Of a stretch of 64,000 bases of DNA, positions 25,901-64,000 are shown piece by piece. The stretch is from assembly GCA_963920705.1 (NCBI GenBank), contig OY987232.1, forward strand, positions 17,211,942 through 17,275,941, written 5' to 3'. The translations under genes and the position numbers were made by a program. Position 1 is the first letter of the stretch, and each line of letters starts with the position of its first letter. The notes under the pieces were generated by a model. That model was not told the origin of the DNA. It was given only the letters and a program-made list of their open reading frames with translations, and made no database searches. The stretch is from Odiellus spinosus. Its lineage: Eukaryota > Arthropoda > Arachnida > Opiliones > Phalangiidae.

Positions 25901-28220
25901 TTTTAAGATATTTTAAAAAGTCAGGGAATTTAAATACTTTCAAGAAGATAATCTGCAGATTCGAAGCTGACCGTGTCAGTTGTATAGATTACAATAAAGA
26001 TACGCGTGCAAAATGTTTGGCGAACGCAATTGCAAAATAATATAAAAAAATAAAAAGTATTAGTTTAAACGGTCAGGGAAAATCGTTGGAAAAGGTCAGG
26101 GAAAAACCTGGAGAAGTCAGGGAATTTGAATTTGATAAAACTGTGGCCACCCTATTAGATGAAATTAACCGCAAATCAATTACGAAATAATTTCATGTCC
26201 AAAAATTAAATATAATTGCCGATATTCAACATGATTTAGACAAGAAGGATCAGACAAGGAGAGGGAAAGTGGGGACGGCGCAGTTCCTACTGCGTCGGTC
26301 TAAACTCCCACTCTGGGAGAACGGGGGTAGAGATGTTTAGTGGTAAAATGTTGTCACGTGGGTAAAACTGATCCTTTATCTGCTTCGTAGTAGCCAACGA
26401 CGCTAGTGACCACGTGACAACAGTTTACCTCGAGAATTTCCTATCCCCCCTTTCCACCCGAGTGGGAGGTTGGCTCTTCTCTCTCTAACTCAACGCAGCC
26501 CTACTTTTCCTCTCCTTGTCTGATCCTTCTTGATTTAGATAAAAATTTGAATACTGTCCGGAGTTATCAATGGTTAGTAACACCGTAAGAAACTTAATTA
26601 CCTTTATTTCATAACCAAATCTGTAGGGTTTAGGTTGGTAGACCTAAATGAAAACAAAAAATATAAAATGTTAAGTTAATAATTCGAGGTCATGTAAGCG
26701 AAATTTGTAAAAAAAAAAATCTTTGTTTATGATAAAATTATTCGTCCGAAACTTGGGAAAAATTCATTTTACGAGCTTGGGAAGGATATTAAAACGGAAA
26801 GTGCAGTGTTTCACATCATCCTTGTTTTTTGTATTTTTTCATTATTTATTAGCGAATGGGAGAAGATCTAGACCGTGCAATGTTTTTAATTTCACTACAT
26901 CGTTGATGTTTCAAGCGAGATATGAATTATTCTATCAAAATCCCCTTTGTCGATCAAACACGAGTTTCGACGTTCAAGAGCGAAGTCAGCTGTAAAATTC
27001 GAAAATATTTTCTTGAACTTGTTCCTATTGCTAGGCTTAAACCGAATTACATCTACTAACAATTAATTAATTCGTATAATTAATCCTATTTTGCTTAATT
27101 TGTGTAGGTGACTGTTTTTCAATTTGTGGGGATTGGAAAATGGTTTCTACATTGCTAGGCTTAACTGAATCACATCTAAAACAATTATTCCATTCCTACA
27201 AAGGGGTTTTAATTACTCTTAATCATACTTTAGTTAATTATAATTAATTAGTAACTGTTTTTCAATTGATGGGATTGGAAAATGGTTTCTACATTGCTAG
27301 GCTTAACCGAATCACATCTACAACAATTATTCCATTCCTACAAAGGGGTTTTAATTAATCTTACTCCTACTTTGGTTAATTATAATTAATTAGTGACTGT
27401 TTTTCAATTGATGGGGATTGGAAAATGGTTTCTACATTGCTAGGCTTAACCGAATCATATCTACAACAATTATTCCATTCCTACAAAGGGGTTATAATTA
27501 ATCTTACTCCTACTTTGGTTAATTATAATTAATTAGCGACTGTTTTTCAATTGTTGGGATTGGAAAATGGTTTCTACGTTGCTAGGCTTAACCGAATCAT
27601 ATTTACAACAATTATTCCAACGCACTCATTCCTATAAAGTGGTTTTAATTAGTCTTATTCCTACTTTGGTTAATTCCAATTAATTAGCGACTGTTTTTCA
27701 ATTTGTGGGGATTGGAAAATGGTTCCTACATTACTAGTCTTAACCGAATCATATCTACTAACAATTAATCCATCGTGCACATTCGTGGAAAAGGGTTTTA
27801 ATTAGCATTATTAATCCTAATATCAAGGAAATATTTTTGGAAAAATTCAATGAAATTGTTTTTGCAAAATTTGTATGAACCACGATTATATAATTCATAG
27901 CAAAAATATATTATAAATACAATTACCTCTTTTTGAACTTGAACGTTACCGCCTTGGTAATTACCTCCACCTTGGTAATTACCTCCACCCTGGTAATTAT
28001 CTCCCCCGTAATTTAACGATACTGTTGGACTATTGAATCCAGCAGCTGTCTGTAGCTTCTGCGCAGGTGGTGGTCTCCCAATAGGTTGTTTGGATTCCTG
28101 GGAATCAATATCCTCTTCAAATTCCTCGTCGATATCTGCTTTTTTCTCCACCTTTTCTTTGTTATCTTTATCAATTTTATCTGCCAAGATTAAACCGGAC
28201 AGTAGTACCAGGACAAATAC
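22968..28220 (-). CDS. Large cuticle protein with an RR (chitin_bind_4) domain, 5' exon missing
   Basis: Secreted structural protein expected to bind chitin in the cuticle. Exons 28220-27927, 24879-24822 and 24760-22968 join in phase to 714 residues. The first visible exon opens VFVLVLLSGLILA, the hydrophobic core of a signal peptide, so a tiny leader exon carrying the ATG (probably MK) lies upstream and was not found. Then follow an acidic stretch and NYQGG repeats, and the RR core, which spans the splice GSGSKK/GSYGYRDAYGLYRIVEYV and ADHNGFRAAIRTNEPGT. A long Pro/Gln region with about ten PPQQIR-type repeats comes next (roughly residues 190-300). The C terminus is FDPSEIKKKLKDNKPRRQQLAG. 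The NEPG ending matches the smaller cuticle proteins in this window. Joining the 27.9-kb exon to the 24.9-kb exon rests on phase and signal-peptide logic, so it is less certain than the rest. Confidence 0.82.
24935..25272. mobile_element. Family A MITE, copy 1 (in cuticle gene intron)
   Basis: 338 bp; ends CAGAAGCCGATGAAACCC and GGGTTTCATCGGCTCCTG; flanked by 7-bp duplication TTTTTAC. It lies only about 55 bases upstream of the acceptor of the exon at 24879. Confidence 0.92.
25466..25617. repeat. Near-perfect long inverted repeat (hairpin)
   Basis: Arms of about 65 bases: the left reads CAATTTGATATGGTCAACG, then TCGTCTGCTAAGCTAG; the right reads CTAGCTTAGCAGACGACG, then CCATATCAAATTGG. They are separated by a loop of about 12 bases. 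In RNA this would be a stable hairpin. It lies in the intron of the cuticle gene. Either a young fold-back element or a small-RNA precursor. Confidence 0.8.
25829..26154. mobile_element. Family E element, copy 1
   Basis: Begins CAGGGTTTCCACAGGTCAGG and ends CTGTGGCCACCCT, imperfect inverted ends. The interior is built of GTCAGGGAATTT words, like copies at 39.7, 44.6, 45.6 and 57.2 kb. No target duplication was recognised. Confidence 0.65.
26241..26532. mobile_element. Family B MITE, copy 3
   Basis: 292 bp; ends CAAGAAGGATCAGACAAGG and CCTTGTCTGATCCTTCTTG; 7-bp duplication ATTTAGA on both sides. Confidence 0.93.
27010..27800. repeat. ~142-bp tandem repeat, five to six copies, in cuticle gene intron
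   Basis: Units share GGATTGGAAAATGGTTTCTA, CATTGCTAGGCTTAACCGAA, CAACAATTATTCCATTCCTA and ACTTTGGTTAATTATAATTA. The outer units are more diverged than the inner ones, as expected for an array growing from the middle. Confidence 0.88.
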
Positions 28221-36487: not shown

Positions 36488-36778
36488 CAAGAAGGATCAG
36501 ACAAGGAGAGGAAAAGTGGGGACGGCGCTGTTCCTACTTCGTCGGCCTAAACTCCCACTCTGGGAGAACGGGGGTAGAGATGTTTCATGGTAAACTTTTG
36601 TCACGTGGGTAAAGCGGATCCTTTATCAGCTTCGTAGTAGTCGACGACGCTAGTAACCACGTGACAACAGTTTACCTCGAGAATTTCCTATCCCCCTTTC
36701 CACCCAAGTGGGAGGTTGGCTTTTCTCTCTCTAACTCAACGCAGCCCCACTTTTCCTCTCCTTATCTGATCCTCCTTG
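36488..36778. mobile_element. Family B MITE, copy 4
   Basis: 291 bp; ends CAAGAAGGATC and GATCCTCCTTG; exact 7-bp duplication GTATCAT. Confidence 0.93.
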
Positions 36779-40083: not shown

Positions 40084-42223
40084 TTAATATCCATGTCCTC
40101 CGTAAAGACCATGTCCGCCTTCATGATGAGAGGTGCTAACACCGACACCACCTTCGTGATGTCCTCCATGGTGTTCTTCATGGTGTTGAGGTGCGTGATG
40201 ATACACTACTTGAATAGGGTTAGCGTCCATGTGCACGGAAGCTGGGTTTTGTTTTGCAGTCCCTGTAGGATTTGAGTTATCATTAGCAGTTGAAAATTTA
40301 CAGTAATTTCTTCAATAACCTAACTTTCTAATTTTAAAAATGTTTAATGACGTCACGGCAACATTTATTAAAATTAAATATAATTTATAAGTTAATTCAC
40401 ATGGAGACACTGTACTTTAATTTCTATATTTATTGACTTCGTTTCGAAGCAATCGTTTCATCCTCAGGTCATTAATTAATTAATTCGAAAAGTCGTCTTT
40501 AATTTAAAGTGCAGTGTTTTCTTGTGAATTAATTACTTTATAATGAATCAAACCTCCAATAAGAAACAAGAATTAATAAATAAAACCAAGAAGGATCAGA
40601 TAAGGAGAGGAAAAGTGGGAACGGCGCGGCTCCTACTGCATCGGCCAAAACTCCCACTCTGGGAGAACGGGGGACAGACGGGGGTAGAGATGCTTCGTGG
40701 TAAATTGTTGTCACGTGGGTAAAACGAATCCTTTATGAGAGGCGCTAGCTAGCGACCACGTGACAACAGTTTACATCGAGAATTTCCTATCCCCCCTTTC
40801 CACCCGAGTGGGAGATTGGCTCTTCTCTCTCTAACTCAACGCAGCCCCACTTTTCCTCTCCTTATCTGATCCTTCTTGATAAAACAAACCTGGCTCGTTT
40901 GTTTTGACATGCGCACGGAATCCCCATTTATCGGCGACGTAATCGACTTTTCGGAAAATTCCATGTGGATCAGTATAACCATAAGATCCTTTAACTCCTC
41001 CGTGTCCATTTCCGGTTTCTTCCCTAAATTGCTTACTTCCGTGTTTATCTTTCACGTGGTAACCGAAAGCGTACGGTTGAGGTTGATGCTGTTAAAATAA
41101 ATTAATAATAGTTAACTTTTATTTATAATTTTAGTCGATATTGGCTTCCAGAAACGTTCTTCAATGAATTAGTTTAAAATTGAAATTAAATTTAATTTAT
41201 GTCCCTATGGGTGCGTACGAAAACCTCTCAGCTAGAAAGCCACGTGTCTTAGACAAATACATCTCAGTTAAAGAATAATACCAACGAAAATTCGTTAACT
41301 TGGCTTTCTCGGCGCCCATATCGACTAGAAATATGCATTTTATTTCAACTTACAATCTCTACATGGTGCTCAGGCTCGTGTTGGCTGTATCCAGCTAAAG
41401 TTACAGCCACAAGGGCGGACGTAAGAACAATCTGCAAGAAAAATTTCTGATTTTAATATTAGTTTTAATGATCAGATTGAATTTGGAGGGAATACTGGTC
41501 TCGCTAAGCCTAATTCAATCAGTTTGGGAAACTTTTCAGACTCTAAACCAAGAAGGATCAGACAAGGAGAGGAAAAGTGGGGACGGCGCGGTTCCTACTG
41601 CGTCGGCCTAAACTCCCACTCTGGGAGAACGGGGGTAGAGACGTTTCGTGGTAAATTTTTGTCACGTGGGTAAAACGGATCCTTTATCAGCTTTGTAGTA
41701 GCCAACGACGCTAGTGACCACGTGACAAGTTTACCTCGAGAATTTCCTATCCCCCCTTTCCACCCGAGTGGGAGGTTGGCTCTTCTCTATCTAACTCAAC
41801 GCAGCCCCACTCTTCCTCTCCTTGTCTGATCCTCCTTGTCTAAACTTAATCGAGAAATTTAGAAAGACTCTAGCCAATGAGAAGCCATATTAAATGTGCC
41901 ATGTGAAGTGGTTAATAAACTCTTAATCTTGTGCTATTTTGTTTTCAATCTGCAATTAAGACTTGGCATCAGCGTTTCTAAACTTTTCGAATTTTTACAC
42001 TGGATTAATAAGGGATTATTTAAGTTCGAATGGTCAATCTAAAAATCTTATTTAATATAAACTACTGGTCATTTAAATTTAATCATTAATATTGCAAATA
42101 TTAAACACAATTAACTAACCGAAAAATACTTAACTCCAGAGATTAAGATTCTAATTAAGATATTAATTAATCCGAAAGGGTTGGAAAAAATTAAATTAGT
42201 TTAATCCTTACCTTAGCAATCAT
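40084..42223 (-). CDS. Cuticle protein with RR domain and His/Gly-rich tail
   Basis: Four exons, 42223-42212 (MIAK), 41431-41354, 41088-40890 and 40262-40084, join in phase to 155 residues. The signal peptide is MIAKIVLTSALVAVTLAG, split after MIAK by a first intron, the usual arrangement in insect cuticle genes. The RR chitin-binding core runs from PYAFGYHVKD (residue 35) through VKGSYGYTDPHGIFRKVDYV and ADKWGFRAHVKTNEPG. The tail is rich in His and Gly (HHAPQHHEEHHGGHHEGG) and ends LYGGHGY; such tails are thought to bind metal or take part in cross-linking. A TATA box lies at 42348-42355. Two B elements sit in introns 1 and 3, the latter ten bases from the donor. Confidence 0.92.
40587..40878. 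mobile_element. Family B MITE, copy 5 (next to a splice donor)
   Basis: 292 bp; ends CAAGAAGGATC and GATCCTTCTTG; exact 7-bp duplication ATAAAAC. On the minus strand it begins 11 bases after the exon end at 40890, so the intron starts GTTTGTTTTAT and then the element. Confidence 0.93.
41549..41838. mobile_element. Family B MITE, copy 6
   Basis: 290 bp, exact 7-bp duplication TCTAAAC; in intron 1 of the cuticle gene. Confidence 0.93.
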
Positions 42224-59494: not shown

Positions 59495-59608
59495 GGATTA
59501 TTGAAAGCGTGATATCCGAATGTGATTATATTTCCTCCGTTGACGTGTTGATAATACTTCATCCTGATTGGTCAGTTTAATTGATCCGCTCAAGTTAGTT
59601 GATCCGCT
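58138..59608. other. Intergenic; poly-T and (TA)n tracts, no gene recognised
   Basis: Poly-T runs near 58290-58325 and a (TA)n microsatellite of about 22 units at 59445-59490. No conserved reading frame. Just before the B element there is a 17-base direct repeat TTGATCCGCTCAAGTTAG / TTGATCCGCTCAAG. Confidence 0.5.
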
Positions 59609-59902
59609 CAAGAAGGATCAGACAAGGAGACGAAAAGTGGGGACGGCGCGGTTCCTACTGCGTCGGCCTAAACTCCCACTCTGGGAGAAACGGGGTTAGA
59701 GACGTTTCGTGGTAAATTTTTGTCACGTGGGTAAAACGGATCCTTTATCAGCTTCGTAGTAGTCGACGACGCTAGTGACCACGTGACAACAGTTTACCTC
59801 GAGAATTTCCTATCCCCCCCTTTCCACCCGAGTGGGAGGTTGGCTCTTCTCTCTCTAACTCAACGCAGCCACACTTTTCCTCTCCTTGTCTGATCCTTCT
59901 TG
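59609..59902. mobile_element. Family B MITE, copy 7, supplying the stop codon of the receptor gene
   Basis: 294 bp; ends CAAGAAGGATC and GATCCTTCTTG, exact 7-bp duplication ATCCGCT. The minus-strand receptor gene reads 43 bases into it before meeting a stop. Confidence 0.94.
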
Positions 59903-62852
59903 ATCCGCTTAACTCTTAACTTTCGAAACTGTGATTGTCCGGTGTAATAGGCTATAATAATTTCGAATAGAAGCGTTAAACCCGCTATTATTTGTCCGTA
60001 AATGAATAATTTAAATATCGGTATAATATCCTCGTAACTTATGATATCGGATTCGGTCGTTTGAGGATGCCACAGAATTGCGTCTAGGTGAAATACGTAA
60101 CGGGCTTCCAAAAAGTACAACAATTTACTTTCGAACTCGGAAAGAAAACTGTAAGAAAAAAACACGAAAAAAGAACACTCTTGGAATAGATAATATTATA
60201 AAATGGGAAGTACTCAACCTTGAAAACAACAAAAATTGCCGTTAAAGAGAACCCGTTTCTAGGGGAGATATACCCTTTTTCCAAGGTTGGGACAACGTAT
60301 AGGACTTTCTCAACCTTGGAACCAACAAAAATTGCCGTTAAAGAGAACCCGTTCCTAGGGGAGATTTACCCTTTTTCCAAGGTTGGGACAACGTATAGGA
60401 CTTTCTCAACCTTGGAACCAACAAAAATTGCCGTTAAAGAGAACCCGTTTCTGGGGGAGATTTACCCTTTTTCCAAGGTTGGGACAACGTATAGGACTTT
60501 CTCAACCTTGGAACCAACAAAAATTGCCGTTAAAGAGAACCCGTTTTTGGGGGAATGTACCTTTTTTTAAGGTTGCGACCAAGTTATTTTATATTATCAT
60601 CAGAAGCCGATGAAACCCTCCTTTGAAGTCTACTACTCCAATGTTCCATATAGCGCTCCTCTCTGTATGGGTAAAACTCCCAATTTTACGAGTTAGAAGG
60701 GGTCCTTCTTCATCCCCCCCTGACTACGGAAAATTGGAAATTCTCTCTCTCCACAAACGACGACGTTTTTTGGACGAACTCCAAGGCTGCTAGAGATATT
60801 CGCTCGACGAACTCCCGCTCCGAAAACATCTACCGTTAGGAGGCGTACGAATCGCGCCTTTTGAGAATAACCCATACAGAGAGGGGTAGACAAGACCCGG
60901 GAGTAATAGACTTCAAAGGAGGGTTTCATCGGCTTCTGTTATCATCTATTTGCTCATATCTCGTAATAGTAATATCAGAAGCCGATGAAACCCTCCTTTG
61001 AAGTCTATTACTCCCGGGTCTTGTCTACCCCTCTCTGTATGGGTTATTCTAATAAAGGCGCGATTCGTACGCCTCCTAACGGTAGATATTTTCGGAGCGG
61101 GAGTTCGTCGAGCGAATATCTCTAGCAGCCTCGGAGTTCGTCAAAAAACATCGTCGTTTGTGGAGAGAGACAGAATTTCCAATTTTCCGTAGACAGGGGG
61201 GTATGAAGTAGGACCCCTCCGATCTCGTAAAATTGTGAATTTGACCCATGCAGAGAGGAGCGCTATATCGAACATTGGAGTAGTAGACTTCAAAGGAGGG
61301 TTTCATCGGCTTCTGGTAATATGAAGAGAACGCGTTAGCGTTTAATGTTATGGGCCGACGATCAAGTGTAATGCATTTTCAATTTATTTAGTTATTTAAG
61401 ATTAATTTTTCATAGCTGGTTAGACTCATTTTAATACTTACAACAAATCCATGAGGATTAGGAATGCGGGACTTTTTGACATTTCGAAGGATATCGGATA
61501 GACGAGTTGCAGTTCCATTATTGGTTTCGATACGTAAACTAGCGGTATTTCTTCCTTTTCGAACACACCTTCCTCGAGACAGGCACCGACGCCGTAGGCA
61601 AACGAGTATTCCATGAGAAAAACCACATCCTCATTCTTCATTTCGTTGTAAAAGTCCGTCCCTGCCACGACACTTGGCTCGAAGAGTTCCATCTCATCAA
61701 ATATGTATTTGAATTTTGGCTCTTTCGCGGCCTGAAAAACATACGTTATGGTTTTTAGTATAATTTAGAATAAAAATGAAAAGGCTGGGATAAGAATGGT
61801 AACGTAAGTAACGTAAGCGATATAAGTATGACGCTTTAAGTTGTTTGAATGCTGAGTTTCTTAGTCAAGGTAGAACGAGAATTGAAATAACAATCGGCTT
61901 TTTCTGCCTTAGCGTAATTTAAAATTGACCAATCAGAGAATTCCTATGAAAAATATTCGTTCCCGCAATCGTCGATTTTGACTCATTCTTTCGATTTTGA
62001 CTTGAAACACACCATGTCTAGGGTTATCAATAATTGCCATACTTATTTCTATTTTACCAGAAGCCGATGGAACCCTCCTTTGAAGTCTACTACTCTAATG
62101 TTCGATATAGCGCTCCTCTCTGTATGGGTAAAATTCACGATTTTACGAGATCGGAGGGGTCCTACTTCATACCCCCCTGTCTACGGAAAATTACAAATTC
62201 TCCCTCTCCACATACGACGACGTTTTTTTGACGAACTCCAAGGCTGCTAGAGATATTCGCTCGACGAACTCCCGCTCCGAAAATATCTACCGTTAGGAGG
62301 CGTACGAATCGCGCTTTTTGAAACTAACCCATACAGAGAGGCGTAGACAAGACCAGGGAGTAATAGACTTCGAAGGAGGGTTTAATCGGCTTCTGATTTT
62401 ACCCATGAGCTTAAAAGTCGATCTTCAGATTGTCCCTTAAGGGTTTTGGGTTTCCATCGAGATCCGGGGATAATTTCATCGACGCTCTTGATGTTGTCGT
62501 AAGCCACGAACGAGTACTTTGATTTCATGGCGCCTGATACTTCGCTAATTATTACAACACACGCTAGGATCCAAACTCCGGCAATTATCCTTTGACTAAT
62601 ACGTTTAGAGATAGTTTCAAAAGCTGAGAATTAATTTTAATATTATATCGTTAGAGAGATCGCCAATTAATTAATCGAAATTGATGACTTACGTTCGTTG
62701 AAAAAGATCATGGTACCATCCCAAGCGTATTTGAAAAAAATGCCCAATATTTTATGTTTCGGTATTTTTTTCTTCCAATTTTTACGATGAAATTCGAAAA
62801 TCGAAAGTAGAAATGAGATGACGAATAATGATGTAAATATTCCAATCCAAGT
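59860..62852 (-). CDS. Ionotropic receptor-like (divergent iGluR family) channel, C-terminal half
   Basis: Ligand-gated channel of the insect chemosensory IR type, at the plasma membrane. Exons 62852-62693, 62623-62403, 61731-61442 and 60148-59860 join in phase to 319 residues. In order: TM1 (TWIGIFTSLFVISFLLSIFE), pore segment (GIFFKYAWDGTMIFFNEP), TM3 (RIIAGVWILACVVIISEVSG), the second ligand-binding lobe (for example VSKPIMELQLVYPISFEMSK) and TM4 (DIIPIFKLFIYGQIIAGLTL). The classical SYTANLAAF gate motif is not conserved, as in many divergent IRs. The N-terminal domain and first lobe are missing; no exon for them was seen between 62853 and the right edge. The final 13 residues, KKDQTRRGKVWLR, come from a B element; without it the frame would end …VKRIN. 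Two A elements and a 96-bp repeat fill intron 3, and another A element begins at base 8 of intron 2. Subfamily is not assigned. Confidence 0.85.
60225..60575. repeat. 96-bp tandem repeat, 3.5 copies, in receptor intron
   Basis: Unit contains ATTGCCGTTAAAGAGAACCC and the inverted pair TTCCAAGGTTGGGA / CTCAACCTTGGAA. Since 96 is a multiple of three, a frame stays open across it; it lies between receptor exons on the opposite strand and is not considered coding. Confidence 0.9.
60601..60938. mobile_element. Family A MITE, copy 12
   Basis: Intact termini, exact 7-bp duplication TTATCAT; in receptor intron 3. Confidence 0.93.
60976..61315. mobile_element. Family A MITE, copy 13 (opposite orientation to copy 12)
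   Basis: Intact termini, exact 7-bp duplication GTAATAT. It lies only 37 bases from copy 12, so the two form a potential 700-bp fold-back in the pre-mRNA. Confidence 0.93.
62058..62395. mobile_element. Family A MITE, copy 14, at the 5' end of receptor intron 2
   Basis: Intact termini, exact 7-bp duplication ATTTTAC. On the minus strand the downstream duplication GTAAAAT is itself the first seven bases of the intron. Confidence 0.93.
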
Positions 62853-63242
62853 CTGTAGAAAGTTAGACGAAGATTAATAAGGATTATTAGAATTCAATCT
62901 TAGAATAACACTGGCTACATTGTTAGGAGATTGTGGTTTTATTGTACATCATTAGTACAGTGATTGACAAATTTATTATTTATTAGGCTCGACTCTATCC
63001 ATTTTATATTTTTGAAATTTTTTAATCACAATAAAATCTTTAGAATAGTAGACTGCGGGCTAATTGTGCTCCAACTTTTAACGTAAAAACTGTTTCATGG
63101 GAGTTGTCGTGACGTCACAAGGAGCCTTTTAAAGGGATAATGAAGCTAATAACTTAATCTTTTAAATTCCTTTTTTTTAAAGGATAAGCTCGCGCTTTTT
63201 AAAGGGTTATTGAAACGGATCCGTTCATTTAAATAAATATAT
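62853..63242. other. Upstream of the visible receptor exons; no further exon recognised
   Basis: AT-rich. At 63133 there is AAAGGGATAATGAAGC, resembling an H-family end. Missing 5' receptor exons were looked for on the minus strand here and not found. Confidence 0.4.
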
Positions 63243-64000
63243 GACCATTCCAAGGTGCAATTTAATATCTGTCCGTTCCAAGGTGCAATTTAATATCTGT
63301 CCGTTCCAAGGTGCAATTTAATATCTGTCCGTTCCAAGGTGCAATTTAATATCTGTCCGTTCCAAGGTGCAATTTAATATCTGTCCATTCCAAGGTGCAA
63401 TTTAATATCTGTCCGTTCCAAGGTGCAATTTAATATCTGTCCGTTCCAAGGTGCAATTTAATATCTGTCCGTTCCAAGGTGCAATTTAATATCTGGCCAT
63501 TCCAAGGTGCAATTTAATATCTGTCTATTCCAAGGTGCAATTTAATATCTGTCTATTCCAAGGTGCAATTTAATATCTGTCTATTCCAAGGTGCAATTTA
63601 ATATTTGTCTATTCCAAGGTGCAATTTAATATCTGTCTATTCCAAGGTGCAATTTAATATCTGTCTATTCCAAGGTGCAATTTAATATCTGTCTATTCCA
63701 AGGTGCAATTTAATATCTGTCTATTCCAAGGTGCAATTTAATATCTGTCTATTCCAAGGTGCAATTTAATATCTGCATCTATTACAAGGTGCAATTTAAT
63801 ATCTGTCCATTCCAAGGTGCAATTTAATATCTGTCCATTCCAAGGTGCAATTTAATATCTGTCTATTCCAAGGTGCAATTTAATATCTGTCTATTACAAG
63901 GTGCAATTTAATATCTGTCTATTACAAGGTGCAATTTAATATCTGTCTATTACAAGGTGCAATTTAATATCTGTCTATTACAAGGTGCAATTTAATATCT
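63243..64000. repeat. 28-bp satellite array running off the right edge
   Basis: About 27 copies of CCAAGGTGCAATTTAATATC plus TGTCYRTT. The variants CCGTTCC, CTATTCC and CTATTAC occur in blocks (left, middle, right), as expected if local expansions spread each variant. It continues beyond the window. Confidence 0.95.

Follow-up and report, generated by a model that had tools for sequence, protein, structure and literature searches.

What becomes of a gene when a transposon lands in its last coding exon? The question is raised by a receptor-like gene on the minus strand of the window, as we call the whole 64,000-nt stretch analysed here (C8:17211942-17275941, in a genome of 443 Mb). An earlier note had read the last receptor exon as ...VKRI, entering a transposon at 59902 and meeting TGA at 59860. 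Our analysis shows that the transposon insertion in the last exon is real and clean; what the element added, which kind of gene received it and in what order the changes came are the questions that follow from it.

The insertion and its empty site

The last coding exon, E8 (60148-59860, minus strand), has the acceptor ttcttacag and an open frame. From its start to the element junction it encodes FLSEFESK...GLTLLFEIIIAYYTGQSQFRKLRVKRI; on the minus strand it reads ...GQSQFRKLRVKRI and then passes into element codons, which end in TGA. The inserted element, called the B element, is a 294-bp non-autonomous inverted-repeat element (a MITE) at 59609-59902 on the minus strand, with the ends CAAGAAGGATCAGACAAGG and CCTTGTCTGATCCTTCTTG. 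Two copies of the target-site duplication AGCGGAT flank it, one within the coding sequence (59903-59909, minus strand) and one that now lies in the 3′-UTR (59602-59608, minus strand). At the junction, the I codon ATC is shared: its first two bases, AT, belong to the duplication, and its third, C, is the first base of the element (59902). The following 13 codons, KKDQTRRGKVWLR, are wholly element-derived (59901-59863, minus strand), as is the TGA stop (59862-59860, minus strand). The reading of the junction thus confirms both the course of the frame and the element as the source of the last 13 residues and the stop.

Removal in silico of the element together with one copy of the duplication gives CGG ATC AAC TAA, as had been claimed. 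The paralogs C2:30184k and C2:30186k match this element-free sequence without a single difference in the 70 nt that span the junction; the two are near-identical to each other, their last exons lying 1.7 kb apart, so that they are hardly independent. A third paralog (L015) is similar at the junction, with differences, and the remaining close paralogs are changed or deleted there. The element is absent from the corresponding position in all 12 close paralogs that were aligned through the 3′ end. These empty sites support a clean insertion without deletion, in which one residue and a stop were exchanged for 13 residues and a stop. A second assembled allele was ruled out, as the last-exon search gave a single 100% match.

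The claim that the 3′-UTR now starts inside the element is supported as well, insofar as the frame predicts it. Downstream of the element, AATAAA (59361-59356, minus strand) is likely to be the old polyadenylation signal and occupies the same alignment columns in nine of the 12 close paralogs.

The element family and the age of the insertion

The family was described from 39 further copies, which had the highest scores in a whole-genome search (the best 40 of 1521 candidates were scored) and are therefore biased to similarity. A perfect 7-bp duplication was present in 38 of these 39 copies, the exception being L008, indicating that the duplication is a signature of the element family. A chance duplication at the window copy was ruled out on the same count. 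A genome-wide count of the 20-base end motif came to 1754 (863 + 891), against 0 for a reversed-pattern control. The 39 copies differ from their consensus by 1.0% on average. In the window copy, the longest frame from either end has 43 residues, and the end arms of 46 nt are 87% complementary, flank included, within a near full-length hairpin. A short element with terminal inverted repeats, a duplication of constant length and many similar copies without coding capacity are what defines a MITE.

The element has a target preference of its own. In a single-strand count of 38 sites, which excluded the window site, T stood at position -3 in 26 and A at position +3 in 28; base 2 of the duplication was C or T in 35 and base 6 was A or G in all 38. 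The preference is nearly mirror-symmetric, and at least three of the four features were found at 34 of the 38 sites. The window site has three of the four. Since the site agrees with what the element itself prefers, the insertion there need not have had any connection with the stop codon.

The 7-bp duplication falls within the 7-8 bp that characterize the P superfamily, and at least 144 matches to a P-type transposase domain (PF21788) were found in the genome (the best 150 of 164 candidates were scored). The MITE may be a candidate member of this superfamily on the length of its duplication. Among the first 100 listed of the 1754 end motifs, two facing ends at C1:7977381 (+) and C1:7982797 (-) lie about 5.4 kb apart; they could be the two ends of a MITE relative that is longer and perhaps autonomous, or could come from two damaged short copies. 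Four further copies of the MITE, found by their ends, lie in the window itself (26241-26532, 36488-36778, 40587-40878 and 41549-41838). A further copy, flanked by the duplication AATAAAC, lies in the 5′ region of the neighbouring receptor gene upstream, whose last exon is at C8:17285332 (L010; window-numbered 78340-78630).

The window copy differs from the consensus of the 39 copies by three substitutions in 292 positions and two single-base insertions. The nearest paralog, C18_A, shares 94.0% identity with the window gene in E8 (205/218), a divergence of about 6%. In a tree of the exon and UTR, the window branch has a length of 0.05, and the private divergence of the element is at most about 0.01. 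Because the element's divergence is low relative to both the branch and the paralog divergence, the insertion is probably younger than the split from C18_A and would fall within roughly the final fifth of that branch.

The gene that received the element

The exons of the receptor gene were found by homology to a neighbouring paralog and to the wider family. They join without a stop into 439 codons (E1-E8) and have GT...AG ends; the exon ends were set by hand from homology and splice signals, and phase consistency is partly by construction. Upstream of E8, all on the minus strand, E7 (61442-61731) appears to encode the second ligand-binding half-lobe, E6 (62403-62623) the second strong helix and E5 (62693-62852) the first strong helix. 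Exons E4 to E1 lie beyond the window (L009; window-numbered 64703-64870, 64933-64999, 72017-72090 and 72161-72211). As modelled, exon 1 opens with MQSGVYQNRT and shows no obvious signal peptide; the true translation start may therefore be missing from the model.

The translation matches the Lig_chan domain (PF00060) with an E value of 2.2e-6 and 28.0 bits, which is under the curated cut-off of 30.8, and its best solved relatives are GluA2 chains (E 2.6e-4). A simple hydropathy scan marked residues 123-141, 186-204 and 391-409 as strong helices and residues 336-354 as a weaker segment; the pore and lobes were assigned by similarity alone. The gene is most likely a divergent ionotropic receptor, a name suggested by these similarities. 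The earlier note had placed the new tail right after TM4. The scan gave three strong helices and one weaker segment, and the helix is properly called M4 in glutamate-receptor numbering.

The family is large. The last exon matches at least 47 places in the genome at an E value of 4e-13 or better, including that of the window (46 others); most lie at C8:17.05-17.62 Mb, and others on C1, C2, C18 and C33. The window gene has a mosaic-like relation to two tandem genes at C18:9831462-9843047 (L031 and L032; compared region 59300-72900), with E3-E5 identical to C18 gene B, E6 nearer to B, and E7 and E8 nearer to gene A. The switch point is close to an element of another inverted-repeat type, the A element (62058-62395; region 62051-62402), which starts, at 62395, exactly 7 bases into the intron after E6. 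Its duplication GTAAAAT copies the splice donor, leaving two copies of the donor sequence in the intron. A second A element (L009; window-numbered 71665-72010) sits 13 bases into the intron after E2. A search by exact ends over the window and a further 20 kb gave nine A elements, seven of them with a perfect 7-bp duplication. The receptor introns also hold minisatellites at 63236-64000, with a 28-bp unit, and at about 65700-70050 in window numbering (L009), and an intron minisatellite array is open over more than 1400 codons as repeats of FCPCYLLPLLPFAPAT. Two insect-cuticle-protein domains (PF00379) occur in the window and, along with the type of receptor, suggest that the genome is that of an arthropod.

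Whether the element entered coding sequence or a 3′-UTR depends on a single codon. In the window gene, the sequence CAG TTT CGA (Q F R) stands at 59923-59931 (minus strand), so that the codon after SQF is CGA (59923-59925). The same codon is TGA in five of the 12 close paralogs (L014, L015, L020, L021 and L022); four of these use it as their stop, and L020 is already frameshifted upstream. It is CGA in three (L013, L018 and L038, the last of which keeps the second exon half alone) and lost in four (L012, L016, L017 and L019). With TGA after SQF in five of the 12, the site of the element is 3′-UTR in several relatives, and the bases that read VKRIN in the window gene sit behind the TGA stop in L021 and L022. 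The ending ...VKRIN-stop, which the earlier note had restored, is correct for the element-free sequence, but it is not the usual ending, and comparison of the paralogs indicates that it is itself unusual in the family: the frame of the window gene runs on through a position at which several relatives stop.

These data bring in another history, in which the gene still ended ...SQF-TGA when the element entered its 3′-UTR, and a later change of TGA to CGA opened the frame through the UTR and into the element. If so, the insertion by itself altered no protein. Besides the TGA of the five paralogs and the VKRIN-matching sequence behind the stop of L021 and L022, the fewest-change tree is consistent with such a history, as it has CGA arise on the lineage of the window gene: parsimony over nine rows gave three changes, with TGA ancestral and CGA gained three times, against four losses required if CGA were ancestral, in an analysis that left out the codon-deleted C18_A, C8_17148k, C8_17152k and C8_17156k as well as five outgroup rows and in which several forks are weak. 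Against it, L013, L018 and L038 have CGA without carrying the element, so the open state is possible without it, and, with a branch of 0.05 and an element divergence of about 0.01, a stop loss at a random time would predate the insertion about four times in five. We regard an insertion into the 3′-UTR as unlikely. Given CGA in three element-free relatives and an element that is young relative to the branch, it is likely that CGA preceded the insertion. The sense codon may be older still, as some distant relatives read on past the SQF position (e.g., QFHFKNK-stop).

Another alternative is a recent unexpressed pseudogene with the element lying in dead sequence, which would be compatible with the same insertion history. 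Several observations are in line with it. The dN/dS ratio relative to C18_A is 0.75 and indistinguishable from 1 (Fisher p = 0.42), which gives no clear sign of recent constraint, and exon substitutions relative to C18_A (57/1126) are no fewer than noncoding ones (66/2091). The gene has a long intron full of minisatellite, and some relatives are broken, such as L020 with a stop and a frameshift in its last exon. Against this stand the eight modelled exons, all of them open, and the absence of indels: in the comparison with C18_A, none was found in 1126 aligned exon bases (E3-E8), where 9.2 were expected (P about 1e-4) from 17 events in 2091 bases of aligned noncoding sequence, a control from which two pieces had been dropped, one of UTR containing an AT microsatellite and the other a non-collinear part of an element; with both included, 10.2 were expected and 0 seen. 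This deficit argues for a maintained frame. The six paralogs compared gave dN/dS values of 0.51 to 0.75, and the lowest, relative to C33, is clearly different from 1 (p = 0.0001). A dead gene seems to us unlikely.

The altered C-terminus and its relation to known systems

A tail was taken to be the residues beyond the last helix, which ends in AYY in the window gene; it could be measured at 42 of the 47 places (L099-L102 and L104 gave none), and net charge was taken as K+R minus D+E. The 42 tails have 2 to 30 residues, charges of -2 to +10 and several stop positions; the shortest belongs to the broken paralog L020. The window tail is both the longest (30 residues; next 27) and the most basic (+10; next +4). 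By hand count, it had 18 residues and a charge of +5 before the insertion. The strongest argument that the insertion could be tolerated is that tails in this family are free to vary.

Could the new tail be an adaptive gain, with the basic end altering trafficking, assembly or gating, or the hairpin of the mRNA altering expression? Its extreme length and charge would fit, as would the stability of the element as RNA: its predicted hairpin has -141.5 kcal/mol (z -10.1), a value reached by 0 of 200 shuffles, and the tail codons lie within its 5′ arm. An effect of the hairpin on expression is possible, but such a hairpin is expected of any element with inverted repeats and is a product of the structure common to this family. 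Selection on the tail was examined and rejected: of the three substitutions in the element, one lies among the 39 coding bases, where it replaces G by W in the protein (T at 59871, where the 39 other copies carry 38 G and 1 A), two fall elsewhere in the element, and the element-derived codons give no sign of constraint. Stop positions, moreover, differ among the paralogs. An adaptive gain is very unlikely in our judgement, and that the basic tail or the stop-codon-spanning hairpin is now a working part of the receptor is most improbable. If it were, one insertion would have altered both the protein end and post-transcriptional control in a family whose tails otherwise drift. A literature search on ionotropic-receptor tails and trafficking gave one matching work, on a termite odorant co-receptor rather than on such tails. 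A functional importance of the tail swap thus found no support, with tails varying widely and the element codons free of signs of constraint, and the change is probably a tolerated accident rather than an adaptive new function.

Taken together, the data suggest the following history. The last exon of an intact-looking receptor-like gene received a young, high-copy MITE, which made a 7-bp duplication at a site in line with its own target preference, probably after CGA had opened the frame beyond SQF. Because of the element's phase and orientation, the frame ran into it and now stops after 13 element-derived codons, making the end of the receptor strongly basic, with a tail that is presumably cytoplasmic. 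The remaining element would serve as 3′-UTR ahead of the old AATAAA, with transcripts expected to run to the old poly(A) site, and the change may have been tolerated because C-terminal tails are weakly constrained in this lineage. As a whole, a young MITE insertion into the last exon with a tail gained and tolerated is the likely explanation on the genomic evidence; our confidence in it overlaps with that in its rivals, as a pseudogene could share the same insertion history.

A transposon supplying a stop codon and a C-terminus is a known kind of event, of which this is a new case; a literature search found no earlier account of this insertion, to which we attach little weight. The locus offers a clean and recent example of a transposon that resets where a coding sequence ends while leaving the gene open, and paralogs in this genome still show the empty site. 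Tails in the family also range naturally from 2 to 30 residues beyond the last helix, a series suited to testing the need for a tail in ionotropic-receptor-like channels.

Divergent ionotropic receptors of insects are described as kin of glutamate-receptor channels that form large lineage-specific families and evolve fast (Croset et al., 2010; PMC2924276), and the present family appears to resemble them in all three respects. According to the same account, those of D. melanogaster are mostly single-exon genes, whereas the genes studied here have at least eight exons in our model. The median dN/dS given there for drosophilid divergent receptors is 0.149, as against the 0.51 to 0.75 found here, which are pairwise values between paralogs and a different kind of estimate.

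As for the element, Galileo, of the P superfamily, is reported to make duplications that are mostly 7 bp long, to have long inverted repeats and to show a target motif extending beyond the duplication (PMC4168063). The MITE shares the 7-bp duplication, the inverted repeats and an extended target motif with Galileo, for which the same source gives the duplication consensus GTATTAC. The P-type MITEs described from Anopheles make 8-bp duplications (PMC1562414), in contrast to the 7 bp of the window MITE.

Transposon sequence within exons has been described in other genes. In wheat, a 307-bp transposon-like miniature element is reported from exon 6 of a gene (PMC6824096), which resembles the present case in having such an element inside an exon and differs in being a plant gene. 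Of 63 chimeric insertions described for Drosophila gene-transposon chimeras, four were in coding exons (Lipatov et al., 2005; PMC1308810), and exonization in Drosophila is said often to truncate or change the encoded protein (PMC7605248, Genome Res. 2020). In the Drosophila chimeras, as would hold here, the transposon is part of the mature transcript (PMC1308810; PMC7605248). The Drosophila chimeras, as presented in these sources, rest on transcripts, whereas the present case is known from the genome sequence, in which the empty site can be read in paralogs.
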